Shown in pieces: positions 4,026 to 59,609 of a stretch of DNA of 64,000 bases (its first letter is position 1; each line of letters opens with the position of its first letter). Location of the stretch: NCBI GenBank assembly GCA_015143295.1, contig CM026553.1, positions 2,689,912-2,753,911 of the forward strand. The letters are read 5' to 3'. The position numbers were made by a program, and so were the translations under genes. Origin of the DNA: Tetracentron sinense (lineage: Eukaryota; Streptophyta; Magnoliopsida; Trochodendrales; Trochodendraceae). The notes under the pieces were generated by a model. The model was not told where the DNA came from. It was given only the letters and a program-made list of their open reading frames with translations, and searched no databases.

Positions 4026-4237
4026 TGTAGAGCCCCGGACCTTTTCACATTTAATGCATGACACTTTTATAGCCATTTTGCCTTTAAAGTAGTACAATTA
4101 ATAAATAAGGAAGAAATTGAAAATTCCGAAAGGTCAGAAATGTTCATTTTCGAAGTACGAACCCAACGCAAGTTGAATCATCAAAATCGGACGAACGAGT
4201 CAAAAGTTATGGCCAAAACAGTTTGGACCTGCAGACC

Positions 4238-4421
4238 ACCGATCGCTCGGTCCATGGAGCGATCGATCGGTCCAAAACCGATCGCTCGGAGGCTATCGAC
4301 TGGTCAAGATTTTTGTATGGGGAAATTTTCCAGAGAGTGAAATTTTAACCAATATCTCGATTATGAAACCGATCGATCGTTAGGCAACCGATCGATCGGT
4401 CATTAACACCGATCGCTCGGT
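4238..4421 (+). repeat. T1 U3 palindrome cassette (ACCGATCGMTCGGT)
   Basis: About six copies of ACCGATCGCTCGGT / ACCGATCGATCGGT-like palindromes, spaced irregularly between the conserved block ending TTATGGCC and the TTTTTGCAGAAATTCAGTAAGG-like block. Equivalent cassettes occur in every LTR here that keeps its U3. Confidence 0.9.
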
Positions 4422-4737
4422 ACTCGCATTTTTGCAGAAATTTCAGTAAGGGTATTATGGTCTTTTGGTCGGTTCACTCTTACCTTAAGAGTTTAACCCG
4501 AGCCTTTAGGGCTCATTCTCAACACTTAGAAGATTTGGGGGATTAGAAGAGAGGAGAAAGGGTTTCCTAAGCTAGGGTTTTGCTTTTGGAGAAGAATCAA
4601 AGGGGTTTTGAGACCCTAGATCACTTCAAGTCCGGCTTTTCTCCAAGATCACGGCTCAAGCACCCGTGGAGAGTGTTCCCCAAGCTAGGGCAGCACCTCA
4701 CGGTCGTTTTTGGAAGGGGTTTCTTCCTCATTTCTTC

Positions 4738-4748
4738 AAGGTCGGTAC
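4738..4748 (+). other. T1 LTR leader splice donor (AAG|GTCGGTAC)
   Basis: AAG|GTCGGTAC matches the plant 5' splice consensus. It is conserved at the same LTR position in T2 (18111/18112 and 25612/25613), T3 (43024/43025), T4 (first intron base 51602, minus), T5 (58383/58384), S2 (11012/11013, GTAAGTAC) and S3 (first intron base 32328, minus). The roughly 250 bp upstream in this copy contain no ATG. Confidence 0.6.
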
Positions 4749-5763
4749 TTCTTGCTACCCTCCTAGTTATAGTTCCTTCTTTTACTTTATTTATCTTTGT
4801 TTGCTTTCATTTACACATGTGCTATGAGATGGATGGGTGTGAATGGTGAATGGAGACGGAATTGGCGATTGGATGCCGTGTGAAATGATGTGATGAATGA
4901 AATGGGGAGGGCATTGTATCCATAATGAACAAACACGTATGATGTGAGCATAACCCACCTAGAAAAGCATGTTGTAGGGTTAATAAATAATGAATGCACC
5001 ATGTTTGATGAAATGCCAAGGTGAATGAAATGAATAATAAATTAAGAAATTGCATGTTTAAGATTTATGGAAATTGCTAGGGTCATGATAGTGTGATTAT
5101 TCGCTTTCCCTAAATGATACGAATACTAAATTGCTCAAATCATTGATGTTATGTGTTATGAATTACTCAAATGCCATATTTAATTCCAAATGCAAGTATG
5201 CACACGACCTCACTAGCACGCATATATGACATGATTTACCGAGGTTTTCAAGAATGGGATTTAGAGGTGGGGCATATCCTACGATATGTTTTACCTCGCT
5301 TTTGGCAAGGACAAGACAATCATGCATTTTCATAAGAAGGGTCTCCCTTCCCTCGCAAGTGCATCTCACAAGGACATCTCACAAGTGAATCTCACAAGTG
5401 GAAGGACAAGCATGAGCATTCTAGGAAGAAGGGTCTCCCTTCCCTCACAAGTAGATTACTTTTCAGAACAAGCAAGCATGATACACGCATGATACAAGCA
5501 TGACACGCATGACACGGTAGACAAGGTTTCAAGCATAAAAAGGGTAATTTCAGTCAAGTCAAGTGCACAAGATTTCAAGGGTTTTACTGGCTTTTATGAT
5601 TGCAAACATGATGAATTATATTGCTTTACTTTATTGTCATGATATGAATCATTCCTGCTTTATATGCATGAATTTTTCCTGCTTTATGTATGCTATACGT
5701 ATGCTATGACGGTTGGTTAGTGCTTGGTACCCGCTGAGTATTCCATGCTCAGCCGTACTTCTT

Positions 5764-5883
5764 ATGTCGGCAGGTTCTGAGGGAGCTACTGCTCCATTTG
5801 ATGTTTGTGCTCCTGGTCCATGGGTGGAGGAGGAGTACGTCGAGGAGCCTTTGGAGGAACCTCCCGTAGAGGGTTATCAGTAG
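5764..5883 (+). CDS. LTR small ORF (T1), 39 aa, MSAG/PWVEEEY family
   Basis: Starts ATG-TCG-GCA-GGT and ends TAG. The product is acidic, with the MSAG start, PFDVC, PWVEEEY and a Glu/Pro-rich tail. Homologous ORFs with the same start and core occur in all other LTRs here that retain this region, and synonymous third-position changes dominate (Val as GTG/GTC/GTT, Tyr as TAC/TAT, Glu as GAG/GAA). Hairpin 5734-5752 precedes it. It lies in the LTR upstream of gag, so in a full transcript it would act as an upstream ORF. No known domain is recognised and no function is assigned. AG|GT inside its fourth codon could alternatively be a splice acceptor. Confidence 0.65.
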   Translation: MSAGSEGATAPFDVCAPGPWVEEEYVEEPLEEPPVEGYQ

Positions 5884-5947
5884 GTGGTGTTAGATTCTGA
5901 GTGGATTAGTTGTGGGTGAGCATGAGTGATTATATCCATGTATTTTG

Positions 5948-5961
5948 GCGGGCATGTCCGC
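5948..5961 (+). promoter_or_regulatory. T1 LTR downstream hairpin (GCGGGCATGTCCGC)
   Basis: Stem GCGG/CCGC. The T2, T4 and T5 LTRs have GTGG/CCAC at the same place, so one base pair changes on both sides. It follows the small ORF in every LTR that keeps this part. Confidence 0.6.
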
Positions 5962-6763
5962 ACTTTCCTTGTTTTGATTTCTTTGTATTAAACTTGGACC
6001 ATGTGTATATACTTAGAGGTTGTTAGACTTCCGCTGTGTTTTATAGTTATGTTTCCGCTGTCATCCTCTATTGTATATGCTCTATGGGTTTTTGCAGGTT
6101 GGTTTGTCAAGCATGTCATGTAAGCCATGATTAGTCGTCCAAAGTTCACTCTAACTCATAGGGTGGGTTTTGGGTCGCGACAAACACAATATTCATTTAA
6201 CTTAATTTCTTGATAATCAAAAGCACCATACTAATATTTATCATTCTTAGACATTTCAACAAACATCTAGAGTGCGTTAATTATGGATACTTTGCCATTT
6301 CCCATTCTTAACATTTCATCACACCATCATCCATCCACACAACCCAAACATACTCCATATCCATACATTCATCCCAATCCTCCATAGTATTTCCCTTCCT
6401 CCGTTCAATCCATCCATAGTATAAATCAATTTTCATCTCTAGTAAGCTTAATCCATATATAATTAGGGAAAACAAATCAAATTATCATTTCTATCATTCA
6501 TATTAAACTAATATTCATCAAACTTCATTGATAGAGTTGAGTTAGGGAGTTTATTGACCTTAGGAATCCTTCCCTTGGATTGAAAACGCTCCCGAGGTGA
6601 TTTGAGGAAGCTTTGAGGACGATCACCAAGCTTTCCTCTCAATCTTCTAGCAATCTCCTTCTTCTTCAAGCAACCCCTCTCTCAAAACCCTAGGTTTTTT
6701 CCTCCTTTTTTCCAAATTAGGTTAGAAATAGGTAGAGTATTTTAATATCTCGAGTAGGACCCC

Positions 6764-7531: not shown

Positions 7532-9500
7532 CTTATCTTCTGTAATAGCAGTGCTTGCAGCATACAGAATATTTGTGATTTTCTCTTAAAATATGAAGAT
7601 TCCTCAAGGCAGAAAATAAATAAGGATAAAAGCTCTCTCTATGGCTCAGATAGTCTCTCTTCTGCAAGAAAAAGGTCCATATCTTCCAGAACTGGTTTCA
7701 AATTTAAGCAATTTCCTTTCAATTACTTGGGAATCCCTTTGCTTAAAGGTTGTCAGAAATTAATTTATTATCTCCCCATCATTGAGAAGATTCAAAGTTG
7801 TGTAGTAGGGTGGTCTGGAAAATTATTATTGATTGGAGGCCGATTAATTCTTATTAAGCACTTTCTATCATCTATCCGGCTCATATTCTTTCTACTATCT
7901 TGATTCCTACTGGTATAGCAAATAAAATTGAGAAAATTATGGCTAACTTTTTTTGGAATAATTCGGAGATGAATAAACATTGTCATTGGGTTAAGTGGAA
8001 GAAAGTTTCTTTACCATATATGGAAGGAGGTTTGGGTCTTATGAAAATTTCAGAAACTACCAAGGCTTTTCGGTTTAAACAAGCTTGGATGATTTATACT
8101 TCCTTCTAATCTTTGGGTGAGGTTTTTTAATGCTAAATATAAATTAGATCATGTGTGCAATGCTTTACCTACCCGCGGTTCTTCTAAACTCTAGATTGAC
8201 ATTTTTGAAGTCTTTCATATGATGCTACCCAAAACTTCGGTTCTCCTTAGGAATGGGACCAAAATTAATTTCTGGTTTGATAGATGGATCAAGGATGAGC
8301 CTCTTATATCTATTGTTCTCGGGATCCCTCAATCTAATCCAACTATTTCTCAGCTTCTTAATGTGAATAGTGATTGGAATCTTTCTCAGGTGAGTCATCT
8401 TATCCCTCTTCATGTCATTAATACAATTAAAGACGGTAATTTTTCTATCTCGAATACAAAGGAAAAATTTGTTTGGACTCCCTCATCTACGGGGATTTTT
8501 TCTGTGAAGACTGCATGGGAATATTTAAGGGACAAAGGTATTGAGATTGATTGGTATAAACATGTTTGGCATCAGATTGTTCCTACTAAAATCAGAATTT
8601 TCTATTGGAAAATTATGAATTGTGTTATTCCTACAGATTTGACAGTCCAAAATATAGGCATTCCTCTGGTTAGTAAATGCCACTATTGCAATTCCTCTTG
8701 GTTGGAATCTTCTAATTATCTGTTGAATTCTAGTGAGCTTGCTTCCTCAGTGTGGTTCTATTTTTCATCATGGAGCGCCATTTATTTTAGCAAGTTTGAT
8801 TCTATCCAAAGTACCTTGAAAAGGTGGTATAGAGTGGCTTCAGCTGGGAAGAATGACCTATTCACTCTTTTGCCGGCTCTGATTGTTTGGGAAATTTGGA
8901 TAGAGAGATGTAGGAGGAAGTATGATTCTAAAAAGCGATATGCCAGTTCTCTTATTCATGCTATTACTAAAACAGTTAGTGAGATACATTACTTGAATGA
9001 TAATTTGCATTTTGATCTATCTCCTTTATTCCCTTCGTCTAACCCTACTATCAGCAAATTCAGAATGATGCTGGTGAAATGGACTTTTCCTCCTCATGCT
9101 AAATTTAAGTTAAACATTTATGGTGCTTCCAAAGGCAATCCAGGTAATGCTAGGGGGGCGGGGTATCATTAGAGACCATAAAGGTAATTTTGTTCCTGGT
9201 TTTTTTGCTACTTGTGGTTGTTGCTCCAATTTTATTGCAGAAACTAGAGCCCTTCTGGATGGTTTAAGTCTATGTAAGAGACTTCACCTTTGCAATGTGA
9301 TCATCGAATCTGATTCCAAGTGCTTAGTTGAAGAATGGAATGGTAGAGCTTTGAAGACCTAGAAATCTTGGGATTGGAATAAGAAAATCAAGATATTATT
9401 ATCTGATGGTCACTCTCTAAATCACATCTTTTGAGAAGCTAATTCTGTGGCTGATGCTCTTACTAATATTGAATGTTCCTCTCTTGCTTGGGGTTCTTGA
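7532..9500 (+). pseudogene. LINE ORF2 remnant: end of RT, zf-RVT, RNase H
   Basis: It opens with LIFCNSS, just after where the catalytic Asp-Asp of a LINE RT would be, then NYLGIPLLKG and GWSGKLL...GGRLILIK, all typical of plant LINE RT C-termini. A frame change near 7880 is followed by WKKVSLP...GGLGLM. The frame at 8219-9172 carries FWFDRWI, FVWTPSSTGIFSVKTAW and a C/H zinc-binding stretch, then an RNase H-like domain (KFKLNIYGASKGNPG) continuing in another frame at 9120-9362. The usual catalytic D of DGA is Y here. Stops occur near 9361 and 9433. This would be the enzyme of target-primed reverse transcription, now inactive. Confidence 0.85.
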
Positions 9501-12109: not shown

Positions 12110-12193
12110 ATGTCGGCAGGTCAGTTCGACATCTGTGATCTCAGCCAATGGGTTGAGGAAGACTATAACAAAGAGGAGCCGATAGATGCTTAG
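12110..12193 (+). CDS. LTR small ORF (S2), 27 aa, MSAG/WVEEDY
   Basis: ATG-TCG-GCA-GGT start, then QFDIC and WVEEDY, stop TAG. This is the shortest and most diverged member, yet start, FDIC and WVEE-D-Y are kept with different codons from T1 (TTC/TTT, GAC/GAT, GTT/GTG, GAA/GAG). Hairpin 12080-12098 precedes it; one stem pair is a G-T wobble. Confidence 0.6.
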   Translation: MSAGQFDICDLSQWVEEDYNKEEPIDA

Positions 12194-14441: not shown

Positions 14442-15686
14442 GCACCGAGATGGTAGAAATCCATGTTTCTCAACTATACGTTGGCCTAAACCTACAACCT
14501 TCCACCATTTCCAAACCGGAGGTCGGATTTCAATCTTGTTTCTTCTAACGCATGTATTTCAATACATCCTAAATGTTGGAGTTGGTTTCGAGCGAATCCG
14601 AAGTCGTATGCCCGATTTGGGCACCGAGATGACCGGAATCCATACTTACATAGTATACTTTGGCCTAAACTCAAAACCTTCCCTCATTTTCAAACCGGGG
14701 CTCAGATTTTGATCCCGTTTCTTCTAATGTGAGTATTTCAATACATCCTAACTGTTGGAGTTGGTTTCGAGCGAATCCGAGATCCGTTGTCCCGATTTGG
14801 GCACCGAGATGACCGAAATTCATACTTAGATAATATACTTTGGCCTAAACCCACAACCTTCCACCATTTCCAAACCGAGGCTCGGATTTTGATCTTGTTT
14901 CTTCTAATATATGTATTTCAATACATCCTAGGTGTTGGAGTTGGTTTAGAGTGAATCCGAGGTCATATGCCCGATTCGGGCACTGAGATTACCGGAATCC
15001 ATACTTAGATAGTATGCTTTGGCCTAAACCCATAACCTTCCACTATTTTCAAAATTTTGCTCGGATTTCTATCCCATTTCTTCTAACACATGTATTTCAA
15101 TACATCATAGCTGTTGGAGTTGGTTTAGAGCGAATCTGAGGTCGTATGCCCGATATGGGCACCGAGATGACCGGGATCCATACTTAGATAGTATACTTTG
15201 GCCTAAACCCACAACCTTCCACCATTTCCAAACCGGGGCTTGGATTTCGATCCCGTTTCTTCTAACACGTATATTGCAATAAATCCTAGGTGTTAGAGTT
15301 AGTTTAGAGCGAATCTGAGGTCGTATGCCCGATTTGGGCACCGAGATGACTAGAATCCATACTTAGATAGTATACTTTGGCCTAAACCCACAACCTTCCA
15401 CCATTTCCAAGCCGGGGCTCGGATTTCAATCTCGTGTCTTCTAACACATGTATTTCAATACATCCTAGGTGTTAGAGTTGGTTTCAAGTGAATCCGAGGT
15501 CGTATGCCTGATTTGGGCACCGAGATGACCGGAATCCATACTTAGATAGTATACTTTGGCCTAAACCCACAACCTTCCACCATTTCCAAACCGGGGCTCA
15601 GATTTCAATCCCGTTTCTTCTAACACATGTATTTCAATACATCCTAGGTGTTGGAGTTGGTTTAGAGTGAATCCGAGGTTGTATGG
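14442..15686 (+). repeat. Tandem array, about 179-bp unit, seven copies
   Basis: GCACCGAGAT recurs at 14442, 14621, 14801, 14980, 15159, 15338 and 15517, a period of 179-180 bp. The unit includes CTTTGGCCTAAACCCACAAC and TTCTTCTAACACATGTATTT. The array ends inside a unit at about 15686. Short frames in it are repeat artefacts. Confidence 0.95.
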
Positions 15687-17319: not shown

Positions 17320-17536
17320 TATTTTGTAGCACCCCGGACTTTTTCATCTTTAATGAATGGCACTCTCGTAGCTAATTGGCCGTCTTCGTAGTGTAATTAA
17401 TAAATAAGGGAGAAATCAGAAATTATGAAACATCAAAAATGTGCGTTTTCGAGAGACGAATCCAACGCAAGTTGAATTGTCGAAATCGGACGAGCGAGTC
17501 AAAAGATATGGCCAAAACAGTCGGGACCAGCAGAGC

Positions 17537-17721
17537 ACCGATCGCTCGGTCCATGGAGCGATCGATCGGTCCAAAACCGATCGATCGGAGGCTATCGACT
17601 GGTCGAAAAATTTGTATGGGGAAATTTTCCAGAGAGTGAGTTTTTGACCGGTCGATCGGTCAATAACACCGATCGCTCGGTAGGCAACCGATCGATCGGT
17701 CATAACCACCGATCGCTCGGT
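17537..17721 (+). repeat. T2 5' LTR U3 palindrome cassette
   Basis: ACCGATCGCTCGGT / ACCGATCGATCGGT palindromes. The cassette in the 3' LTR (25038-25222) is the same array with few changes. Confidence 0.88.
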
Positions 17722-18700
17722 CTTCGTGTTTTTCAGAATTTTCATTAAGGGCTTTTTCGTCTTTTGGGGTTTAAACCCTTACCTATGAGGGCTTGCCCTA
17801 GCCTTAGGGCTTCATTCACAGCACTTAAGGGATTTTGAGAGATAGAGAGAAAGGAGAAGGGGATTTGCAACTAGGGTTTTCCATTTGAGAAGGAATCAAA
17901 GGGGTTTAAGAACCCTAGCTCACCCAACTCGTTTTGCTTCAAGTTCAAGGCTCAAGCTCGTGTGGGGTTCCCTTCTCAAGCTAGGGTAGCACTCTCTACG
18001 GTATTTTCGAGAGGGTTTCCTACCCAATCAAGTATAGTTTGAGTAAGGGCTTTCTTCTTCCAAGTTGGAGTTTAAATCAAGGTCTACACCAAGATCAAGC
18101 TTCGATTCAAAGTTAGTACACTCTACTAACTTTCTTTAGCAATAATCTAGTTTTTCCCCTTTGACATTATGATGTTGGTCTTGTATCTTCCCTTACTTGA
18201 AATGTGCTATACTTCCTAAACCTAAACAAGATAAATGTGAATGTGGGGTTGTATGTATGAATGGTGGATGTAGAGGCGATTGGATGCCGTTGGACGTGGT
18301 GAAATGTGGGTATGGAAAATGGTGGAAGGGCACTCTATGAATAATGAACATACTTGGATGTTGTGTTGGAAATTTATGCGCTAAAAAGGAGAAATAAAAC
18401 TACTAAAATGTTGCACACCGGATGTTTGATAATATGCCTAAACCAAGAATAAATGAAATTGATAAAGGAAATGGATGTAAGCTTTATGTAATTATTCTTG
18501 TAAATGATGACTTGACCAAATGCCATGTTGATCACCTAAATGCTTACATGTTATACTATGAATTGAAATATGATGCGATATCCCTCTTGTTACACGTGTC
18601 CCCATGATTGTCACTATTGGCACGCATACGAGTACACATGCATGCATGAAACTGGGTTTTCCAAGATTGTATTTATACATGTTGAGTTAACAACAAAACA

Positions 18701-18963
18701 AGAACATGACAAGGAGGTTGGTAGCCCAAGGAAGGGTGCTAGCCTCTGGCTCACAAGAGAAATGGAACAAGAACATGACAAGGAGGTTGGTAGCCTAAGG
18801 AAGGGTGTTAGCCTCTGGCTCACAAGAGAAATGGAACAAGAACATGACAAGGAGGTTGGTAGCCCAAGGAAGGGTGCTAGCCTCTGGCTCACAAGAGAAA
18901 TGGAACAAGAACATGACAAGGAGGTTGGTAGCCTAAGGAAGGGTGCTAGCCTCTGGCTCACAA
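18701..18963 (+). repeat. T2 5' LTR 69-bp tandem repeat, four copies
   Basis: AGAACATGACAAGGAGGTTG recurs at 18701, 18770, 18839 and 18908. Because 69 is a multiple of three, both strands show a long periodic frame through it. The 3' LTR has three copies. Confidence 0.95.
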
Positions 18964-19239
18964 GTATACAAGTCAAGAACAAATCAAGACATGAAATACA
19001 AGACAAGACACGACACACATACATGATTTGACCGAGACACGAAAAAGGTTTTCGAGACATGAGTTTTACCGAGGTTTTTGCATTCATACACGCATGTTAA
19101 GATATGGCTATGTATCTTATGCTTTCACAATTGCTTTAAATTAATATCTTGTATTGCTCACTGTTGTTATGCTTTCGCTATTGTTATGGTTAGCTAGTAG
19201 TTTGTACTCGCTAAGTATTCCATGCTCAGCCGTACTTTT

Positions 19240-19308
19240 ATGTCGGCAGGTACTGTGGATGTCCTCGACCCCGAGCCTTGGGTCGAGGAGGAGTATGTCG
19301 AGGAGTAG
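19240..19308 (+). pseudogene. LTR small ORF (T2 5' LTR), truncated to 22 aa
   Basis: MSAG start and the DPEPWVEEEYVEE core are intact, but TAG at 19306-19308 stops it where the 3' LTR has AGG and T4 has AGA. The rest, matching the 46-aa 3' LTR copy, follows in frame to about 19380. Both LTRs were identical at insertion, so the stop is a later mutation. Confidence 0.65.
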
Positions 19309-19664
19309 GAGCCACCTATCCCATGGCAGTCTCAGGAGGATAGGGACTTGGATGTGTGGCCATACCTTGACTACTGTTGAGAGGAGAGGGTTAGAGAGTT
19401 CCTTTTTGTATTTTGATAGGTGGGCATGTCCACCTTTACTTTGATTGTATTTGGTATATGTTAACTTGGAATACTATTTAGAGTTATAGAAGAAAAGAAA
19501 AAGTTGGCTTATACTTCTGCACTTAAGTTTAGTTTCCGCGCTCTGATTATCATTGTATTATATTATGTGTAGCCTCTTGCATTACAGGATGGTTTGACAG
19601 GTACACGTAGTCACCTCTAAAGTATCCCTTAACTCCTAGGGGGTATTTTGGGGCGTGACAGAGG

Positions 19665-19678
19665 TGGTATCAGAGCTC
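19665..19678 (+). promoter_or_regulatory. T2 primer binding site (initiator tRNA-Met)
   Basis: TGGTATCAGAGCTC lies four bases after the LTR end and is complementary to the 3' end of plant initiator tRNA-Met. It primes minus-strand synthesis. Confidence 0.95.
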
Positions 19679-19998
19679 TAGGCATTAGAGTCCCTAGGCT
19701 CACATAGGAATGATACCATGATTGAACTAGGTATTAGAATTACCTTAAAGAGTTGTATTCCAAGTATGGACTAACAAGTTAGTCCTAGTCAAAGTAGGTT
19801 GAACTTCAACCGAACATGGAGTCCTACGCTAGGAACATGGATTGTATGTGATGTCATTGTTGTGTATACCATGTGCGCGTTAATTGTGTTATGCTTATTA
19901 AATATGCTTGATGAATATGTATTGAGTGAATTGCGAAAATTGTACTAAATGCGTATCTAAGTTAGACTCATGTTGTATTGTCGTTCTCAGGAGAAATC

Positions 19999-21233
19999 AT
20001 GAGACGCAATACCCGGGGTCGCGGGTACAACACGAGGGGCAATGGAGGTGATGCTCCATCGGGTGATGATCAACCCGGCTTTGCCCAAGCATTTGCATCC
20101 ATAGCCGAGACTTTGGCTATGTTGGCGGCAAGGCAACCGGCCACTCCGCCTAATGCGGCACTTATACCGGCTCCTCCTAACCGAGCCCAAGCCGGGATAG
20201 AAGCTTTCCGGAGGATGAGGCCTCCAACTTTTTGTGGAAGCATTGATCCACTTGTCGCCGAGGGTTGGATTCGGCAACTTGAGAAGATATTCTCGGTATT
20301 GGCACCTACGGAAGTAGAGAGGGTCACATGGGCTGCCTTTATGCTTGAAGGCGAGGCCGACCATTGGTGGAAGTCTGCACTTCGGACCCGAGAGTTGACC
20401 TGGCAAGGCCAAGAATGGACATGGGGAGAATTCTTGGACGTTTTCTACAAGAAGTACTTTCCGGTTGGGATGAAAGAAAAGAAAGAAATTGAATTTATTA
20501 CCTTGGAGCAAGGTAATATGTCTGTAACGGCTTACGAAGCCAAGTTCTCAGAGCTATCTCGATTTGCTCGACACATGATAGCTACCGAGGCTATGAAGGC
20601 CTGGAAATTCGAGAGGGGGTTGAAGGCCTACCTCAAGGATCGTGTCTCAATGTTCCGACATGAGACATATTCAGAAGTTGTGGACAAGGCATTGTTGGCC
20701 GAGTCGAACTCCGAAGAGTTCTTTAAGAGAAGAAGAATGGAGAAAGGACAGTCTAGTAGTTCAGGGGAGAAGAGAGCTAGGACTATGTCTTATCAGTCCG
20801 CAGGGCCAGCTCAGTCACAGAGGATGTACTCGGCATCACAGGCTCCCCGCCCTTGTGCTCCACCGGCTTTTCGCCCGGCTACCTCGTATGCTCCTCGCCC
20901 CACAGTGACTCAGGCTACGGGTTATACTCCTCCCACTTATTCACATGATGTCTGCACCCTTTGTGGAAGGAGGCATCCAGCAGGGGAATGTCGGAAGGCT
21001 ACAGGAGGCTGTTTTCATTGTGACGACCAGGGCCACATGATTCGGGATTGTCCCCGACGTCGATTGCCAGCTCAGTCTTTGGGGAGCAGGCCCGATTAGG
21101 CAGACATCTCAGCCTAGCTCTTCTCAAGCTTCAAGGGCCTCACAGTCTACCCGGCCTCCTCGCCCAGCCACTCAGGGCTAAGTCTTCGCCCTATCGGAGA
21201 GAGACGCACGTGCATCCGACGATGTCGTGCAAG
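19999..21233 (+). pseudogene. gag: T2 Gag (capsid and zinc knuckles), frameshifted near its end
   Basis: The start ATG at 19999 (MRRNTRGRG) is shared with T3, T4 and T5, and follows CTCAG|GAGAAATC, a likely splice acceptor at 19990. The product has the retrotransposon Gag core (AEGWIRQLEKIF...ADHWW...FLDVFYKKYFP) and two zinc knuckles (CTLCGRRHPAGEC; CFHCDDQGHMIRDC). A frame change near 21090 ends the main frame at 21099. The remaining codons up to the donor at 21233/21234 read in another frame with a TAA where T1 has Leu and T5 has Trp. Gag would form the particle shell; this copy would miss its C-terminus and could not fuse to Pol. Confidence 0.92.
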
Positions 21234-21385
21234 GTACGCAAAAAAAAAAAAAAAAAAAAAAATTCTAGAGTCTAAGTTGTGTAAATTTCTATGATTTATT
21301 ATGTGATTATTTATACTAAGGGTTACCTATGTATGATGCTTGTTGTTGTTTGAAATCTACTAATAGTAGCTACTTAATCGCATAG
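21234..21385 (+). other. T2 predicted gag/protease intron (152 bp)
   Basis: CAAG|GTACGC at the 5' side and CATAG|GC at the 3' side, at the same glycine codon as in T1, T4 and T5. A run of 23 A (21240-21262) lies right after the donor. Read unspliced, the local frame ends at TAG 21266-21268. Confidence 0.75.
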
Positions 21386-24300
21386 GCGCTTTATTAGTGA
21401 ACGAGTGTCTCGCCCGAGTGTTGATCGACACAGGATCCACTCACTCCTTTGTGTCACCTAGTTTCGCGAAGAGATTTTTGACTGAGGCTATTCCGTTAGA
21501 GCGGGAGTTGACCATTGCAACTCCACTCAGTAAGTCAGTTGACACGAACAAGATATTCAGAGATTGTGTGGTTCAAGTAGGGGAGAATGAACTAGTGGCC
21601 GATCTTATCATTTTGGATTTCCAAGATTTAGACTTTAACGTCATTCTTGGTATGGATTGGTTGGCAAACCATCACGGGCATGTTGCGTGTTTTGAAAAGA
21701 TGGTGAATTTAAAGCCGGAAGGGGGTAAGCCTTTTCACTTCCGAGGATTAAGAGAGAGGGACATTGCTCGCCTCGCAGCCTTGAGTATAGCACACCCAGA
21801 AGCACAAAACTCATCGGCTATTCCAGTTGTGAGTGAGTTCTTAGATGTGTTCCCGGAAGAACTTCCCAGATTACCTCCTGATAGAGAGATCGAATTCGCT
21901 ATAGAGCTTGCTCCGGGTACCGCTCCGATTTCAAGGGCACCATATAGAATGGCCCCTATAGAGCTTGAAGAATTAAAGAAACAGATTGAGGAGTTGCAAC
22001 AACTTGGTTTCATCCAACCAAGTGTCTCGTCGTGGGGAGCTCCGGTTCTCTTTGTGAAGAAGAAGGACGGGTCTATGAGGATGTGTATAGACTACCGTCA
22101 GTTGAACAAGGTAACTATCAAGAATCGTTATCCCTTGCCAAGGATAGACGACTTGTTTGACCAACTGAAGGGAGCGAGATTCTTCTCCAAAATTGATCTT
22201 AGATCGGGGTATCACCAATTAAGGATCAAGGCGGAAGATGTTCAGAAGACGGCTTTCAGGACTCGGTATGGGCATTAGGAGTTCCTTGTCATGCCTTTTG
22301 GGCTGACGAATGCACCGGCGGCATTCATGGATTTGATGAACCGGGTGTTCCGATCTTACTTGGATCGATGCGTGATTGCATTCATTGATGACATTTTGGT
22401 GTATTCCCAGACACGGGAAGATCACGCACGAGACCTCCGCCTTGCTCTGGAGATGTTGAGAGAGCATAGGCTATATGCCAAATTGAGTAAGTGCGAGTTC
22501 TGGCTAAAGAAGGTCGCATTTCTTGGACACGTGGTGTCGGCCGAGGGCATTTCTGTAGATCCAGCCAAGGTTGAGGCAGTCATGAGTTGGGAGAGGCCCA
22601 AGAGCGTCACGAAGATACGTAGTTTCCTCGGATTGGCAGGCTACTACCGGAGATTTGTGGAGGGATTCTCCAGTTTGGCTGCACCTCTCACCTACTTGAC
22701 AAGAAAAAGTGCAAAGTTCAGTTGGAGTGACCGATGTGAAGTAAGTTTCCAAGAGTTGAAGAAACGCCTCACCACAGCCCCTGTCCTTACTGTGCCATCT
22801 GGACCTTTTGGGTATGAGGTGTATAGTGATGCCTCGCACGTCGGACTCGGGTGTGTCCTAATGCAACACAAGAAAGTCATTGCCTATGCATCAAGGCAGT
22901 TGAAAGAGCATGAAAAGAACTACCCCACTCACGACTTGGAGCTTGCAGCGGTCGTGTTTGCACTCAAAATTTGGCGACATTATCTGTACGGGGTGGAGTT
23001 CTATGTGTACACGGACCACAAGAGCCTCAAATATCTCTTTTCCCAAAAAGAGCTCAATTTACGACAACGCCGTTGGATTGAGTTCTTAAAAGACTATGAG
23101 TGCACGATCCAATATCACCCGGGAAAAGCAAATGTGGTGGCAGACGCTTTGAGTAGGAAACCATCGGGGTTGTTGGCTCACATGTTGGTGCGGGAATGGA
23201 GACTATTAGACGATTTGGCAAATCTGGACATCAGTGTGAATGATTCTGTCCGCAGTCCTATTTTGGCAAATGTTACGGTTCGACCGTACCTTATAGATTT
23301 GATCCAGGAGTACCAGGCCACAGATGCTGACTTGTTGGCTTTTCGGGACAAGGAAATTGCCAAGGGTAGTACGGACTTCTCTCTCAATAGCCGGGGTGCT
23401 ATTACATTCAAGGGAAGACTTTGTGTCCCAGCCAATGCAGACCTTCGAAGAGAGATCATGGATGAAGCTCACCATTCAAAGTACACAGTGCATCCTGGGG
23501 TTACGAAGATGTACCGGAACCTCAAGAGTCACTTTTGGTGGCGAAACATGAAGAGGGAGGTTGCGGAGTATGTGGCACGGTGTTTGGTGTGCCAACAGGT
23601 GAAAGCGGAGCATTTGAGACCGGCGGGTCTTTTGCAGTCTCTCCCTATTCCCGAGTGGAAATGGAAACATATCTCTATGGACTTCATCGTGGGGTTGCCG
23701 AAGACGGTTAGGAAGACCGATGCTATATGGGTAGTTATTGATAGACTCACGAAGTCCGCTCATTTCTTACCGTACCGGACTACATTCAATTCCAATCAGC
23801 TAGCGGCGCTATACATCGAGGAAATAGTCCGATTGCATGGGGTGCCAGTGAGTATTGTGTCGGATAGAGACCCAAGATTCACATCCAGGTTTTGGAAAAG
23901 CTTTCAGGATGCTATGGGTTCCCGACTAGACTTTAGCACGGCTTTCCACCCACAGACCGACGGGCAAACAGAGAGGATGAATCAAGTGATAGAAGACATG
24001 CTCCGAGCTTGTATGTTGGATTTTAAAGGAAGTTGGGAGGATCACCTACCTTTGGTGGAATTCGCCTACAATAACAGTTATCAAGCAAGCATACAAATGG
24101 CACCTTTTGAAGCCTTATATGGAAGAAGTTGTAGATCCCCCTTGTATTGGGATGAGGTTGAAGAAAGAAAGATTTTGGGCCCCGAGTTGATTGAACGAAC
24201 CGCGGATAGGGTCAAGCTTATACAGGAGAGGTTGAAGACCGCACAGGACAGACAGAAAAGCATGCCGACAACCGAAGGAGGGATCTTGAATTTCGAGTCG

Positions 24301-24716
24301 GTGACTTTGTGTTTATCAAGATTTCAGTGACCAAGGGTGTTATGCGATTCGGGAAAAGAGGCAAGCTTAGCCCGAGATATGTGGGTCCGTTCGAGATCAT
24401 TACTCGAGTCGGTGAAGTTGCTTACCATGTTGCTTTGCCCGCTCACATGGCGGCGGTCCACAACGTGTTTCATATCTCCCAGCTTCGGAAGTACATCCCG
24501 GATCCTTCTCACGTCATCGAGCTTGATCCGGTTGAGATTTGAGAGGATCTCACTTTGGTTGAGAAGCCGGTTCATATTTTGGATCGAAGAGACCAAGTAC
24601 TTCGCAACAAGACTATTCTGCTAGTTCTCGTGCAATGGCAACATCACGCTCGAGAAGAGGCTACATGGGAACGTGAGGCCGAAGTCAAGGCGAAGTACCC
24701 CGAGTTGTTTGAATGA
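21386..24716 (+). pseudogene. pol: T2 Pol polyprotein with two stops and one frameshift
   Basis: Same domain order as T1: protease [10 protein letters not shown] with FIDD, RNase H, HHCC and DDE integrase, GPY/F, chromodomain. Breaks: TAG at 22276-22278, in RT where T1 has Tyr (GHYEF); a one-base loss near 24262, after the integrase core; and TGA at 24540-24542 where T1 has CGA. Each part is otherwise well conserved with T1, so damage is recent. It could move only with enzymes supplied by another copy. Confidence 0.93.
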
Positions 24717-24789
24717 TTTTGTGTATGACTTGTAAATTTGTTTCGAATTGTTATGCTAAGTTGTTTAAATTGTAAAGCAAGCATTGTCC

Positions 24790-24825
24790 AAATTTCGAGG
24801 ACGAAATTTTTGTAAGGGGGGAGAA
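24790..24825 (+). promoter_or_regulatory. T2 pre-PPT inverted repeat and polypurine tract
   Basis: AAATTTCG-AGGA-CGAAATTT (24790-24809), then AAGGGGGGAGAA (24814-24825) directly before the 3' LTR. Confidence 0.92.
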
Positions 24826-26201
24826 TGTAGCACCCCGGACTTTTTCATCTTTAATGAATGGCACTCTCATAGCTAATTGGCCGTTTTCATAGTGTAATTA
24901 ATAAATAAGGGAGAAATCAAAAATTCTGAAATGTTAGAAATGTGCGTTTTTGAGAGACGAATCCAACGCAAGTTGAATCGTCGAAATCGGACGAGCGAGT
25001 CAAAAGATATGGCCAAAACAGTCGGGACCAGCAGAGCACCGATCGCTCAGTCCATGGAGCGATCGATCGGTCCAAAACCGATCGATCGGAGGCTATCGAC
25101 TGGTCGAAAAATTTGTATGGGGAAATTTTCCAGAGAGTGAGTTTTTGACCGGTCGATCGGTCAATAACACCGATCGCTCGGTAGGCAACCGATCGATCGG
25201 TCATAACCACCGATCGCTCGGTCTTCGTGTTTTTCAGAATTTTCATTAAGGGCTTTTTCGTCTTTCGGGGTTTAAACCCTTACCCATAAGGGCTTGCCCG
25301 AGCCTTAGGGCTTCATTCACAGCACTTAAGGGATTTTGAGAGATAGAGAGAAAGGAGAAGGGGATTTGCAACTAGGGTTTTCCATTTGAGAAGGAATCAA
25401 AGGGGTTTAAGAACCCTAGCTCACCCAACTCGTTTTGCTTCAAGTTCAAGGCTCAAGCTCGTGTGGGGTTCCCTTCTCAAGCTAGGGCAGCACTCTCTAC
25501 GGTATTTTCAAGAGGGTTTCCTACCCAATCAAGTATAGTTTGAGTAAGGGCTTTCTTCTTCCAAGTTGGAGTTTAAATCAAGGTCTACACCAAGATCAAG
25601 CTTCGATTCAAAGTTAGTACACTCTACTAACTTTCGTTATCAATAATCTAGTTTTTCCCCTTTGACATTATGATGTTGGTCTTGTATCTTCCCTTACTTG
25701 AAATGTGCTATACTTCCTAAACCTAAACAAGATAAATGTGAATGTGGGGTTGTATGTATGAATGGTGGATGTAGAGGCGATTGGATGCCGTTGGACGTGG
25801 TGAAATGTGGGTATGGAAAATGGTGGAAGGGCACTCTATGAATAATGAACATACTTGGATGTTGTGTTGGAAATTTATGCGCTAAAAAGGGGAAATAAAA
25901 CTACTAAAATGTTGCACACCGGATGTTTGATAATATGCCTAAACCAAGAATAAATGAAATTGATAAAGGAAATGGATGTAAGCTTTATGTAATTATTCTT
26001 GTAAATGATGACTTGACCAAATGCCATGTTGATCACCTAAATGCTTACATGTTATACTATGAATTGAAATATGATGCGATATCCCTCTTGTTACACGTGT
26101 CCCCATGATTGTCACTATTGGCACGCACACGAGTACACATGCATGCATGAAACCGGGTTTTCCAAGATTGTATTTATACATGTTGAGTCAACAACAAAAC
26201 A

Positions 26202-26400
26202 AGAACATGACAAGGAGGTTGGTAGCCCAAGGAAGGGTGCTAGCCTCTAGCTCACAAGAGAAATGGAACAAGAACATGACAAGGAGGTTGAGGTTGGTAG
26301 CCCAAGGAAGGGTGCTAGCCTCTGGCTCACAAGAGAAATGGAACAAGAACATGACAAGGAGGTTGGTAGCCTAAGGAAGGGTGCTAGCCTCTGGCTCACA
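26202..26400 (+). repeat. T2 3' LTR 69-bp tandem repeat, three copies
   Basis: Units begin at 26202, 26271 and 26346. One unit fewer than in the 5' LTR shows turnover since insertion. Confidence 0.95.
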
Positions 26401-26663
26401 AGTATACAAGTCAAGAACAAATCAAGACAAGACACGACACACATACATGATTTGACCTAGACACGAAAAAGGTTTCCGAGACATGAGTTTTACCGAGGTT
26501 TTTGCATTAATACACGCATGTCAAGATATGGCTATGTATCTTATGCTTTCACTATTGCTTTAAATTAATATCTTGTTTTGCTCACTGTTGTTATGCTTTC
26601 GCTATTGTTATGGTTAGCTAGTAGTTTGTACTCGCTGAGTATTCCATGCTCAGCCGTACTTTT

Positions 26664-26804
26664 ATGTCGGCAGGTACTGTGGATGTCCTCGACCCCGAGC
26701 CTTGGGTCGAGGAGGAGTATGTAGAGGAGAGGGAGCCACCTATCCCATGGCAGTCTCAGGAGGATAGGGACTTGGATGTGTGGCCATACCTCGACTACTG
26801 TTGA
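26664..26804 (+). CDS. LTR small ORF (T2 3' LTR), 46 aa
   Basis: MSAG start, DPEPWVEEEY core, then an RDLDVWPYLDYC tail and TGA. The T4 LTR has the same tail (RDLDVWPYLDYC) with many base differences, and S4 has RDLDSWPY...DY, so the tail is conserved as well as the core. Hairpins lie on both sides. No recognised domain, signal peptide or membrane segment. Function unknown. Confidence 0.65.
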   Translation: MSAGTVDVLDPEPWVEEEYVEEREPPIPWQSQEDRDLDVWPYLDYC

Positions 26805-27229
26805 GAGGAGAAGGTTAGAGAGTTCCTTTTTGTATTTTGATAGGTGGGCATGTCCACCTTTACTTTGATTGTATTTGGTATATGTTAACTTGGAATACTA
26901 TTTGGAGTTATAGAAGAAAAGAAAAAGTTGGCTTATGCTTCTGCACTTATGTTTAGTTTCCGCGCTCTGATTATCATTGTATTATATTATGTGTAGCCTC
27001 TTGCATTACAGGATGGTTTGACAGGTACACGTAGTCACCTCTAAAGTATCCCTTAACTCCTAGGGGGTATTTTGGGGCGTGACATATTTAGTCATCCATT
27101 AAGTCTTGTTGTAACAATAACGAAAAGGATTCACGAACATTATCAGGTATAAATAGGTGATAAACATACGTCGTGTTATAACAAAAATAAACAATGAGTT
27201 CCAATACAGAAAACGAACATTATATTTCT

Positions 27230-30200
27230 CTACAAAAAAATTATTACATCAAGTGTCTTTACAGAGAGATCATCATCATTATCTTCAGAATCACTTGAGC
27301 TGTCATGTAAAGACTCTGCCTCGGTGATGGTTAGGGGTACATCAATTGTTATTCCAGGGATATCTGCCCTGATATCACCAATATTTTCAACATCCAGTCC
27401 AGTATCGTCCATTCGTACAACATTTGGTTACATGATATCAGGCAATGTCTCGACCAAATTGCATGAACTCCCGTTCGCATGTCGAAGTATTTCCTTGGCT
27501 TGAACTGAATAGCGATGTGCCAGTCTTTTTCCAGCAGGTCTTCGACATAAAAGACTTGCATTGCTTGTGAGGCAAGTACAAAAGGTTCATCGGTTTTGAG
27601 CATCCGTGTCAGATTTACAAGTGTCAATTGGAAATCATCTTCCTTGATGCCCCTACGTTGAGAAATAACATCTACCCAATCACAGTTAAATAACACAACC
27701 TTTCTTCCTTCGTAATAGTCCACTTGAACTATTTCTTGCAAAACGCCATAGTATGTTACATCACCTGTTTGCGGTGTCTCTACGGTGAGGACCACGCCGC
27801 TATTTTGCGTCTTCTTGGTACTATCAACAGATTTTGTTCGAAACCAAAAGCCATTGATGACAAACCGTTGAAAGTAGCATGCAATCATCGATGGGCCATG
27901 AGCCAACCATTTCAGGTCATTACGTAGATGCTCTGGACTTCCACCAATCAATGTATTCACCTATTAGTGTTTGGTAATTCATGTTAGTAAACAGTCAAAA
28001 TAATAAACTTTATTTCCAGTTGAAACATAGTTCCGATATATTACTAACATTTGGCACAAACCAATTTGGAAATTCTCTATTGTGGATGCGGCCAATGTCA
28101 ATTGGCCGCCTATGATGATTTTCAGCCGTTACTTTTTCCAAGTGTACCCTGCATTTCAATCATCGTGGTTAATTGGTGAATACCACATGTAGATGCTTTT
28201 GATGAATATAAATACAAAGTGGAATCACCTTACCCAATAAATGGTGCCACTTCAAGAAAATTAGACAGGATATAATGGTGTATCTGTGTTGATACATCAA
28301 CAGATAAATATATCATCACCGCCTTTCCTATAGGACAACCAAGTACAGAAAAAATTGACAATCTGTGGTATGTCCCAACCCCATCTACATCATAGCTGCG
28401 AGCTACATGGTTGGACTTTGTTTTAGCATCGTGCACATACCTTGCGCAGAAAGTGACACATTCTTCAGCAAGATATCCCTCTGTTCTAGAACCTTCTGGT
28501 TTACTTCTGTTACGTACATATGATTTCAATGTATGAAGGTATCTGTTATACAAAAAAAATAAAATGTGAATGTCGTACAACAGAATAGTCTTGTTGTAAT
28601 AACATATTGCAGTTTTAATACGAAATCAATGCGTAACACTTACCGCTCGATCAGATACATCCATCAGTACTGTACTAGACCTGCAACCCTGGCCTCGCTT
28701 GCCAAATGGATGGCTAGATGTACCATGATGTTAAAGAATACATGTGGAAAAATCCTCTCAAGGGTGTAAAGTGTAACTGCACATCCAGCCTCAAGTTCTG
28801 TGAATTCTTCAACGATGCCAACCTTAGAGCATAACCCTTTGAAGAATCTACTCAACTCAATCAACGGTTCACTTACATTCCTTGGCAGTGATTTCCGCAA
28901 GGCCAATGGGAGTAGCTGTTGCATTAAGATGTGGCAGTCATGGCTTTTCTACCCTGATATTTTGGCTTTTTCAGATTCACACATCTTGAAATATTGGATG
29001 CATATCCATCTGGAGTTTTCACCGTTGTTAGTACGTCACAGAAAATACTTCTCTCATCGACTGACATGGTGAAGCATGTCGCAGGCAAATATATTCTCTC
29101 CTAATGCATGTGAATGAAGTGCAGTTCAAATACCCATTTCCTTAAGGTCAAGACGTGATTTCCAAGTGTCTTTTGTTTTTCCATCAATATTCAATAACGT
29201 CCCTGTGATACTATCACAATATGTTTTTCAATATGCATCACATCCAAATTTTGTCTTATTAGTAGATGCTCCCAATAAGATAATTTGAAGAAAATACTTA
29301 CCCTCTTCCGTCCAATATTCTCAACATTACTGTACGCGGTCTTTTTCCTCTCGAGGTGTTTGCCCTATGCTTCCCAAATTGGATGTTTAGACCACGCATT
29401 GGCCCCAACAATTCGATCCTTGTGTGTGCAATACGAGCAGGTCTTGTTTCGACCTATCTATTAAATGATGCTTTGTTCTTGCGGAATCTATGACCAAACC
29501 CCAAGAATCATCTATGACCCATATAACAAAACTTATGCCCATGTTTCAAGTACTGGGACCATATGCCTTGGTTGCAATGAGGACAAGCGTATCGCCCCTT
29601 TGTACTCCATCCAGACAAGTTCGCATATGCAGGGAAGTCATTGATTGTCCACAATAACGTTACTCTCATCTGAAAATTTTGACCACTTGACACATCGTAC
29701 GTGTTTAGTCCATCAATCAATAGATCTAATAACTCATCCATAAGTGGTTGTAAGTATACATCAATGTCATTACCAGGAGCACGAGGATCAGGAATAAGTA
29801 ATAACATCATCAGAAAATGTTACTTCTTACACATCCAAGGCGGCAAATTATATGGAGTCAAAACAACAGGCCAAGTACTGTGTGCGATGCTAAGGGTACC
29901 GAATAAGATTGAAACCATCGCTTGCTAACCCAAGTCTGACATTGTGAGGTTCAGCAGAAAATTCACGGTATCGTTCATCAAGATGTCGCCAGGATTCAGA
30001 GTTAGTTGGATGCCTTAGAACACCATCTCGGGTGCGACCCTCTGTATGCCAAATCATGGAACCAACTGTCTTGTCTGACATGTAAAGTCTTTGAAGTCTA
30101 AGCTTTAAAGGAAAATGACGCAAAACTTTTGTTGGAATTCTGCCTTCCTTCCTGGATGACGGTGTTGTACAGGAGTCCGTAATCTTCCACTGTGGAATTC

Positions 30201-30668
30201 CACAAACAGAACATGCAATATCATTGACATTTTCCTTCCAGTATAACATGCAATCGTTTAGGCATGCATCAATCTTATTGTAACCAAGACCTAATTCTCC
30301 GATTATCTTTTTAGTTTGGTAAAAGGATGAAGGCAAAGTCTCACCCTCGGGAAGTGCCTCTTTCAGTAATTCAAGTAACATTGTGAATGATTTGTTGCTC
30401 CATCCATTCAGACACTTAATGTTATATAACCGGACGATAAAAGATAGTTTACTGAATTTTTTACATCCGAGATACAAATCTTGCTCCATATCTTCTACTA
30501 ACTTATAGAATTTTGCAGCTTCTGCGTTCGGACTCTCTCTTGTTTCACTCGGTCCCTCATCGACTGTCCCTTGGTTTGCACGATTGGGTCCGAACGCTGC
30601 GTGCCACATCTCTTCTATATCATCTATTGCAGGGTTATCCACGTCCCTCACAACTTGGGCAGGTTGAG
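27230..30668 (-). pseudogene. CACTA TNP2-type transposase, main part
   Basis: Minus strand, in transcription order: an acidic linker after the N-terminal domain; the catalytic Transposase_21-type region (about 30440-29500), with CMLYWKE, CSVCGIPQW, HFPLKLRLQRLY, HTEGRTRDGVLRHP and LLIPDPRAPGNDIDVYLQPL; a DUF4218-like region (about 28920-28440: HVFFNIMVHLAIHLASE, KSYVRNRSKPEG); and a DUF4216-like C-terminus (27960-27480: YYGVLQEIVQVDYYEGRKVVL). Gaps between frames partly fit introns, but a frame change and a TAA near 29850-29900 show decay. The product would cut CACTA ends. S3 splits it from its N-terminus. Confidence 0.9.
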
Positions 30669-30966
30669 TGTCGCGTCCCAAAACCCACCCTAGGAGTTAG
30701 AGTGATCTTGGACGACTCAATCATGACTTACATGACTTGCTTGACAAACCAACCTGCAAAAACCCACAGAGCATATACAATAGAGGACATTATAGCGGAA
30801 ACATAACTATAAAACACAGCGGAAGTCTAACAAACCTCTAAGTATATACATACGGTCCAAGTTTATACAAAAAGTAACCAGAAGAAAGTGCGGACAGACC
30901 CGCCAAAATACATGGATATAATCTCTCATCTCACCCACAGCTAATCCACTCAGAATATACAACCAC

Positions 30967-31086
30967 CTAATGGTAACCCTCTACTGGAGGTTCCTCAAAA
31001 GGCTCCTCGACGTACTCCTCCTCCACCCATGGACTCGGAGCACAGATATCAAATGGAGCAGCTGCTCCGCCGCCACCTGCCGACAT
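30967..31086 (-). CDS. LTR small ORF (S3), 39 aa
   Basis: MSAG start, Gly/Ala run, PFDIC, PWVEEEY, Glu/Pro tail ending GYH, stop TAG. It has the same length and tail as T1 and T3, with several synonymous differences, and stays open although this is a solo LTR. Confidence 0.65.
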   Translation of the reverse strand: MSAGGGGAAAPFDICAPSPWVEEEYVEEPFEEPPVEGYH

Positions 31087-41985: not shown

Positions 41986-42190
41986 TGTAGAGCCCCTGAC
42001 CTTTTCACAGTTAAGGCATGACATTCTTGTTGTCATTTTGCCTTTAAAGAGGTGTAATTAATAAATAAGGAAGAAATTGGAAATTTCGAAATGTCAGAAA
42101 TGTTCCTTTTCGAAGTACGAGCCCAACGCAAGTTGAATCGTCAAAATCGGACAAACGAGTCAAAAGATATGGCCAAAACAGTCTGGACCT

Positions 42191-44053: not shown

Positions 44054-44173
44054 ATGTCGGCAGGTGATGGTGGAGCAGCTACTCCATTTGATATCTGTGC
44101 TCTGAGCCCTTGGGTGGAGGAGGAGTACGTCGAGGAGCCTTTGGAGGATCCTCCGGTAGAGGGTTACCATTAG
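44054..44173 (+). CDS. LTR small ORF (T3), 39 aa
   Basis: MSAG start, PFDIC, PWVEEEY, Glu/Pro tail ending GYH, stop TAG. Same class as T1 and S3. The hairpin at 44024-44042 ends 11 bases before the ATG. Confidence 0.65.
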   Translation: MSAGDGGAATPFDICALSPWVEEEYVEEPLEDPPVEGYH

Positions 44174-44478
44174 GTGGTTGTAGATTCTGAGTGAATTAGC
44201 TGTGGGTGAGATGAGAGTTAGATTGGTGTATTTTGGCGGGCATGTCCGCACTTTCTTTTGATTGTTTTTTTTGTATAACTTGGATTTGCGTATGCATATA
44301 CATAGAGGTTTGGTAGACTTCCGCTGTGCTTTATGGTTATGTTTCCGCTATGATGTCCCCTATTGTATATGCTCTGTGGGTTTTTGCAGGTTGGTTTGTC
44401 AAGCAAGTCATGTAAGCCATGACTAGTCGTCCAAAGTTCACTCTAACTCCTAGGGTGGGTTCTGGGTCGCGACAGAAG

Positions 44479-48030: not shown

Positions 48031-49150
48031 TGTCGTGCCCCAAAATCTCACCTAGGAGTTAGGTGTGACTTTGTGCATGACTAACCTACCATATCAAACC
48101 ATCCTGCAAAATATACAAGATATAGACATAGCGGAAGCAAAATTAAAGTACGGAAGTGAAACAATGCGGAAGTGTGAACTAAAAATATCTTTTCAATACA
48201 GGAACAATATTCTAAGTTTAATACAATGACATGAGTCAATGTAAGAGTGGACATGCCCACCCATCAAAATACAAAATATAAAACTCTTTATCTCTCAGTA
48301 GTCACCCTGATAGGGCCAACTATCTAAGTCTCTAGCCTCCGCCTGAGGCACTAATACAGGCTCCATATGAGGCTCCTCCTCACCATATTCTTCCTTGATC
48401 CATGGACTAGAAGCACAGATATCGAATGGTGTACCTATCGATATCAAAATGTACGGTTGAGTATTGAAACAACAATGATATAATACAATTCATAGTATAC
48501 AGAAAATTAAACAATACATTAATGTGCATGCAATAAACCCAAGTTCAAACTCCTCATTTAAGTCACATGTGCATATTACATAGATCATACTTGAAATTAG
48601 CTTTTCGTGTTTTCAAAACTTGTTTGTCGTGCTTAAAACATTATTCTTGCCTTGTTCTTGTTCTTGTCATGTGAAAATCATGCTTGTCTTGTTCTTGTTT
48701 GAATCATAATTGTCTTGTCTTGCTTGTCTTATTCATGTTGGAATCATACTTGAAATTAGTTTTTTGTGTTTTCAAAACTTGTTTGTCGTGCTTAAAACAT
48801 TATTCTTGCCTTGTTCTTGTTCTTGTCATGTGAAAATCATGCTTGTCTTGTTCTTGTTTGAATCATACTTGTCTTGTCCTTGTTGGAATCATACTTTTCT
48901 TCTCTTGTTCTAGAAGCCAGATATTAGTGCCCTTGAAACGGCTTGAAAGCCGGGTATATAAATACCCCTCATCAAAAAACTTGAAGTCCGGTGTGTAAAC
49001 ACCCTTCATTTAAATGGAAAGAGGCACACTAGTATCCTTGACCAACCCAAAGTTTGGCATTATTATTCGTTCGTGAAATCACTTGTCTTGTGGTTTAGTT
49101 TACTGTCAATTACTTGTATTTAGAAAATCTCGATTATGCAATACATGCTT
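48031..49150 (-). repeat. S4: reversed chromovirus LTR, 3' part (left edge clear, right edge approximate)
   Basis: Plus-strand start TGTCGTGCCCC is the complement of an LTR end. It contains hairpin 48245-48262, a decayed small ORF 48295-48444, and a spacer with a duplicated CTTGTTCTTGTCATGTGAAAATCATG block (48650 and 48830). U3 and leader were not recognised, so it is truncated. Confidence 0.75.
48295..48444 (-). pseudogene. LTR small ORF remnant (S4), start codon lost
   Basis: Frame of 49 codons with PFDIC, PWIKEEY and the RDLDSWPY...DY tail, stop TGA. The start reads ATA-TCG-ATA-GGT in place of ATG-TCG-GCA-GGT, so initiation is lost while the rest stays open. The upstream hairpin is decayed too. 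Confidence 0.6.
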
Positions 49151-58157: not shown

Positions 58158-58215
58158 CTTTCACGTTTTTACAGAATTCATTCAGGGTAAATGGGTCTTT
58201 GATCACCCTATTTTT

Positions 58216-58223
58216 CTATAAAG
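58216..58223 (+). promoter_or_regulatory. T5 LTR TATA box
   Basis: CTATAAAG about 60 bp after the cassette and about 160 bp before the leader donor. Confidence 0.65.
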
Positions 58224-59453: not shown

Positions 59454-59609
59454 ATGTCAGCAGGTACACGGGTCCCTTTTGAAATTTGTGCCCCGGGTCC
59501 TTGGGTTGAGGAGGACTAAGGTAAGGAAGAACCATATGTGGATTCAGAGGTTGAGCCTCAGGCTGAGGCGAGGGACTCAAACCATTGGCCCCATGGGGGT
59601 GACTACTGA
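59454..59609 (+). pseudogene. LTR small ORF (T5), stop in the core
   Basis: MSAG start, PFEIC, PWVEED, then TAA at 59517-59519 where the others have Tyr. The frame after it stays open and carries the EARD...WP...GDY tail to TGA 59607-59609, so the original product was about 51 aa. Confidence 0.6.

Follow-up and report, generated by a model that had tools for sequence, protein, structure and literature searches.

The 3′ part of the LTRs of chromovirus elements in the 64-kb window analyzed here (the window being the whole of that stretch of DNA) carries a short frame that is almost certainly coding and under selection, and which in its intact copies would encode an acidic peptide of 39-46 amino acids. 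The predicted peptide is laid out as an MSAG start, a short variable spacer, a PWVEEEY-EE core and a variable tail, a layout maintained by purifying selection. All of the evidence comes from eight insertions in this one window of one genome, in which nine copies of the frame, labeled a to i, are found:

5764..5883, plus strand: copy a, intact, 39 aa, in the 3′ LTR 4026-6182
12110..12193, plus strand: copy b, short, 27 aa, with the homologous tail shifted by 1 nt
19240..19380, plus strand: copy c, premature TAG at 19306-19308, in the 5′ LTR 17325-19660 of element A
26664..26804, plus strand: copy d, intact, 46 aa, in the 3′ LTR 24826-27084 of element A
30967..31086, minus strand: copy e, intact, 39 aa, in the solo LTR 33051-30669 (TSD CTCAA)
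44054..44173, plus strand: copy f, intact, 39 aa, in the 5′ LTR 41986-44474 of element C
48295..48444, minus strand: copy g, start codon ATA, rest open, 49 codons
50068..50208, minus strand: copy h, intact, 46 aa, in the 3′ LTR 52300-49789 of element D
59454..59609, plus strand: copy i, in-frame TAA at codon 22, in the 5′ LTR 57757-59878 of element E

All nine translate as the original prediction had described. They occupy a homologous position within the last ~470 nt of the LTRs, with 397-424 nt separating the frame start from the LTR 3′ end. Five are clean and full-length (5764, 26664, 31086 on the minus strand, 44054, and 50208 on the minus strand), and the other four are broken or short: copy b is short, c and i have gained a stop, and g has lost its start. 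The premature TAG of copy c is absent from its sister LTR, copy d, while the in-frame TAA of copy i had been missed in the original prediction. Broken frames are expected after insertion and work against a signal of selection. Since copies c and d come from the paired LTRs of a single element (98.2% identity over 2259 compared bases, TSD TATTT), the frames represent eight insertions rather than nine. A profile built from the nine frames recovered all of them, as it must by construction, along with one further LTR end (57756-57550, minus strand) that is truncated before reaching the peptide frame.

The MSAG start had been described as kept, which holds after the ATG in eight of the nine copies but not in copy g, which begins with ATA and reads ISIG. 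Likewise, the proposed PF-D/E-I/V-C core is not kept throughout, being replaced by VDVL in 19240 and 26664 and by EGTF in 50208 (minus strand); the steadiest core across copies is instead W-[VI]-[EK]-E-[ED]-Y, with the Y position occupied by the TAA in 59454. The N-terminus and middle of the peptide are kept, and its C-terminus and length vary between subgroups. Codons of the MSAG start are nearly invariant, synonymous sites included, and conservation of part of the start may accordingly act on the nucleotide sequence. The six peptides assessed contain 9-14 acidic residues (D/E) against 0-4 basic ones (K/R), with a pI of 4.05, which is the floor of the pI method.

The elements that host these frames, and the landmarks between LTR and gag, are as follows:

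17325-27084, plus strand: element A, TSD TATTT, copies c and d
from 41986, plus strand: element C, copy f
57756-49789, minus strand: element D, copy h
from 57757, plus strand: element E, copy i
19666..19677, plus strand: PBS TGGTATCAGAGC of element A; the other PBSs are at 44480 (plus), 59884 (plus) and 57544 (minus)
19999..21099, plus strand: gag ORF of element A, downstream of the LTR peptide frame

We take the PBS to be of the tRNA-iMet type. In elements A, C, D and E gag starts 314-362 nt past the LTR, and element A has Pfam matches to gag, protease, RT, RNase H and the integrase zinc-binding domain in the Ty3/gypsy gag-pol order, with the integrase core at 21.8 bits, under the Pfam cut-off of 32.6. 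A putative chromodomain (PF00385) lies in element C at 45801-46154 (E 2.9e-5, 24.3 bits against a cut-off of 25.1). The LTRs start with TGTAG where the start was located (all but copies b and g) and end in GACA, TACA or, for copy i, GATA. Based on the gag-to-integrase order, the chromodomain just below its cut-off and the GGG at the LTR end, the hosts look like Tekay/Del chromoviruses, the clade name Tekay following the original prediction, LTR length, PBS and chromodomain. By eye, the GGG matches the U5 att of type A reported in PMC4029996, whose main text contains neither "ORF" nor "open reading".

The LTRs of copies a and c are mosaic, with the first ~700 nt (4026-4723 and 17325-18019) 79% alike and no match of at least 150 nt over the rest, and 69-bp tandem repeats at 18696-18994, 5′ of the ORF in the element A LTR, are partly common to its other LTR and to element E. 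The window also contains ORFs with DUF4216 and Transposase_21 (tnp2) at 27352-30681 (minus strand) that adjoin the solo LTR of copy e and presumably derive from a CACTA-type DNA transposon, a satellite-like tandem array at 14475-15685 (179-bp unit, 6.8 copies), and an ORF with a zf-RVT domain at 8219-9172 (plus strand), likely from a LINE.

Selection on an LTR-encoded peptide, the central claim of the original prediction, is borne out by a dN/dS far below 1, a third-position bias, gaps that keep the frame, and flanks that lack the signal. Codon model M0, fitted on a tree built from the flanks with the stop codons in copies c and i treated as missing, gave an omega of 0.208 over the entire frame (2dlnL 50.4, nine copies) and 0.19 for the tail alone (2dlnL 21.2). 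In the flank controls, which comprised gap-free columns from two regions in all six reading frames, omega ranged from 0.69 to 1.10 without significant departure from 1 in 12 of 12 fits (maximum 2dlnL 1.87). Read in its five alternative frames, the ORF itself gave 1.30, 2.80, 1.35, 3.12 and 0.51; the last, an antisense reading (2dlnL 9.7), is weaker than the sense frame, and the two largest values differ from 1 (2dlnL 18.2 and 20.5), a result that we infer to mirror the third-position change. Analysis of the ungapped 18-codon core from a plain DNA alignment, which removes the bias of a protein-guided alignment, yielded an omega of 0.117 (2dlnL 32.97), and none of 120 neutral simulations matched the observed likelihood gain (simulated maximum 8.45).

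The signal persists across subsets of the frames within the window. Omega remained at 0.106-0.223 when subgroups, or every broken and short copy, were left out, and scoring the stops in copies c and i as missing leans slightly toward coding, yet the fit to the five intact copies alone still holds (omega 0.172, 2dlnL 28.9). Within copies c, d, h and i omega is 0.086, and within a, e and f alone the signal is weak (omega 0.349, 2dlnL 4.7). By NG86, 8 of the 11 pairs compared (of 36 possible) gave finite dN/dS values of 0.108-0.402, the other three being saturated. Elsewhere in the elements, dN/dS was 0.148 for the gag N-terminus (one pair, 420 nt) and 0.041-0.096 for pol (three pairs), and the constraint on the LTR peptide resembles that on the elements' own gag N-terminus. 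Substitutions are concentrated at third positions, as had been predicted, and gap lengths are multiples of three in 56 of 56 cases within the frame, compared with 89 of 300 in the downstream flank and 23 of 128 in the upstream flank; these are pairwise, non-independent counts, the 56 frame gaps representing perhaps six independent events. The claim that lengths vary by whole codons is thereby upheld for the frame itself, but past the early stop of copy b the homologous tail has a 1-nt gap. Together, the codon fits, simulations and gap pattern led us to reject a chance or non-coding origin of the frame.

The spacer around the frame had been described as unalignable between families. This is largely accurate for copies a/e/f set against the remaining six, where the blastn matches are mainly confined to a region reaching from about -50 across the ORF core and to the final ~30-45 nt of the LTR. 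Within the ORF these two groups have a mean identity of 0.62, which rises to 0.74 over the 55 nt leading up to the ATG and drops to 0.57 downstream. The description does not hold among b, c/d, g, h and i, whose final ~440-480 nt can for the most part be aligned, at 67-75% identity and with a mean of 69% downstream of the ORF. Two candidate hairpins flank the frame:

19204..19235, plus strand: possible hairpin GTAC..GCTGAGTAT-TCC-ATGCTCAGC.GTAC, 13 pairs, just 5′ of the ATG of copy c, with homologous stretches in the others
19419..19434, plus strand: hairpin GGTGGG-CATG-TCCACC, 6 pairs, 3′ of the ORF of copy c, at homologous places in all nine LTRs

For the upstream hairpin, 91% of 114 cells can pair and it is the minimum-energy fold in copies b, d, e, f and h (five of the eight folded, copy c not being among them) but not in a, g and i; its covariation does not exceed that of shuffles, and we do not claim it as a proven structure. 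The downstream hairpin is paired in 51 of 51 cells with a covariation score matched by 2 of 500 shuffles, and two of its pairs are altered on both sides, a count matched by 122 of 500 shuffles; it is possibly a polyadenylation or packaging element. No match to Rfam was found at gathering scores.

The original prediction placed the frame upstream of gag in the genomic RNA, and the LTR contains a stretch 3′ of the ORF that is complementary to sequence beyond the PBS:

19464..19474, plus strand: LTR arm ACTTGGAATAC of element A, complementary to the post-PBS stretch
19755..19765, plus strand: post-PBS arm GTATTCCAAGT of element A, complementary to 19464-19474
59683-59693 with 59971-59981: the corresponding pair of arms in element E

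This complementarity is present in all four elements, extending over all 11 positions in A, E and D (with G-U in D) and, with a different sequence, over 10 of 11 in C, and is reminiscent of the stems that U5 and the leader form around the retroviral PBS. It suggests that the LTR stretch 3′ of the ORF is part of the leader of the genomic RNA, with the LTR as a possible partner in a long-range stem enclosing the PBS. The pairing forms in the minimum-energy folds of only two of the four elements (A and E; the arm of C pairs elsewhere past the PBS, and that of D does not form it), which lowered our estimate, and we regard a position of the peptide ORF in the 5′ leader as likely. No TATA box is common to the nine copies. 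The ATG context is weak in all nine, with T or C at -3 and T at +4, and 14-22 further AUGs lie between the peptide ORF and gag in elements A, E and C, which would complicate the expression of either ORF from unspliced RNA and makes a single uORF unlikely as the main switch of gag on such RNA. In the single-sequence minimum-energy leader folds of A, E and C, the nearest large stem that they share begins ~49-76 nt past the ORF stop. These folds lean against ribosome shunting, as they show no well-placed stem. The shunt uORF of plant pararetroviruses is shorter than the ORF described here.

Homologues outside the window were sought at several levels. A set of 5.8 billion proteins gave six candidates, none of them with an E up to 10, a Pfam scan of six peptides returned no family at E up to 1, and the best match in the PDB had an E of 0.31. 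Neither a DNA pattern nor a peptide profile revealed a homologue among viral contigs, where 18 stretches fit a pattern but none was confirmed, nor were any of 62 pattern-matched stretches in a search with pol segments; five prokaryotic contigs with the same 18-mer were read as chance.

Several other explanations of a constrained frame at this position merit consideration. A frame that was once an additional ORF or part of a host gene, and has since come under relaxed constraint, would fit the four of nine copies that are broken or short, but the five intact copies remain constrained when analyzed alone and the peptides resemble no Pfam or PDB entry at the thresholds above, making this reading improbable. 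Even less credence is due to the frame being the translated shadow of a conserved RNA or DNA element, a caveat raised with the original prediction that is now largely refuted: while the LTR end does contain conserved, partly structured sequence, the 6 pairs that RNAalifold predicts in the ORF core (eight of the nine copies) show no compensatory change, the signal is specific to one frame, and the dS of 1.30 between d and h is far above the flanks, where the two are separated by 0.33 substitutions per site on the tree. The frame might also be the first exon of a spliced product, with a donor inside or beyond the ORF spliced to an acceptor TTCTCAG/G just before gag to yield an MSAG-led Gag or a cleaned leader. 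A 3′-splice-like TTCTCAGG is indeed found shortly 5′ of the gag ATG in all four elements (19984-19991 in A, with homologous sites in C, D and E), and GCAGGT follows the ATG in eight of nine copies; but the elements have no strong donor in common, the top donors differing between them when scored with approximate splice-site matrices, and by our own reading a GCAG/GT junction would be in the gag frame only in some elements and would lose the selected core. We consider splicing of this type quite improbable.

The more serious alternative is a conserved peptide uORF (CPuORF) acting in cis, in which the peptide, as it emerges, would slow or arrest its own ribosome, setting gag output or reserving genomic RNA for packaging. 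The frame is short, lies 5′ of gag, is conserved at the peptide level and has a weak start context, and the conservation of its N-terminus and middle resembles the class IIa pattern of plant CPuORFs, in which the N-terminus and/or middle is conserved upstream of the main ORF (PMC9305500). However, unlike in those plant genes, the frame resides in a mobile-element LTR, its C-terminus is not shared across subgroups in sequence or length (39, 46 and 49 codons), and gag lies behind so many AUGs that one uORF would be masked unless the leader is spliced or shunted. An effect in cis is therefore doubtful to us. Because the subgroups agree in the N-terminus and middle but diverge in length and C-terminus, we favor a role for the peptide as such, probably through peptide action rather than ribosome arrest.

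MMTV Sag, a large membrane protein coded in U3, is likewise encoded inside a retroviral LTR and hence at both element ends. In the parts of the literature covered here, to which the survey of extra ORFs by Steinbauerova et al. 2011, reportedly the key one, does not belong, we met no LTR-resident peptide of this kind and no ORF so small. Within what appears to be the same clade, Tekay 5′aORFs have been reported in sunflower Tekay group 2, maize Tekay, sorghum Sb7 and rice RIRE3, RIRE8 and Retrosat-2 (PMC11728184), and the frame described here is similarly a conserved extra ORF 5′ of gag-pol under purifying selection. The sunflower 5′aORF, present in 500 of 523 elements, encodes a 402-aa product predicted to be largely disordered, with a predicted basic NLS and a proline content of 15.9% (PMC11728184). 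In contrast, the present peptide, compared with it by description only, is 39-46 aa, acidic, inside the LTR and present twice, and the LTR-gag spacing of elements A, C, D and E leaves too little room for a large internal 5′aORF. A review of plant elements, in the portion consulted, places their additional ORFs in the internal region (PMC7264820), and 47 non-conventional peptides have been assigned to LTR retrotransposon regions in grape (PMC9070638). The frame also resembles the shunt uORF of plant pararetroviruses as a short ORF early in the long AUG-rich leader of a reverse-transcribing element (PMC5902531), but differs in its peptide-level constraint and in the distance from its stop to the large stem.

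The explanation we favor, an acidic microprotein under selection that is read from the gag leader and acts as a peptide, has in its entirety about an even chance of being correct. An RNA initiated in the LTR would most likely be translated from its 5′-proximal short ORF in the gag leader, with inefficient initiation at the weak-context AUG. The product would be a disordered microprotein carrying an acidic/aromatic short motif, most likely with a host or element factor as its partner, bound through PWVEEEY. Whether such a peptide acts in trans we judge to be evenly balanced. Since its frame lies inside the LTR, each element carries it at both ends, and solo LTRs retain it. More tentatively, and with the balance of probability slightly against it, the frames could represent a hitherto unrecognized class of LTR-encoded, trans-acting microproteins of plant chromoviruses, still encoded by solo LTRs, that bind a host factor (for example, in silencing, translation or transcription) for the element's benefit.

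LTRs are treated as non-coding both in annotation and in LTR dating, and the presence of a tiny acidic peptide gene within them seems to point to an unrecognized product of these elements. If so, the element would have a product beyond Gag-Pol, a candidate for translation control or host interaction, and if the trans-acting reading is true, the peptide could be produced from any transcribed LTR in the genome. Should a widespread lineage keep the peptide, its LTRs would not be neutral throughout, and its solo LTRs would be potential peptide genes.
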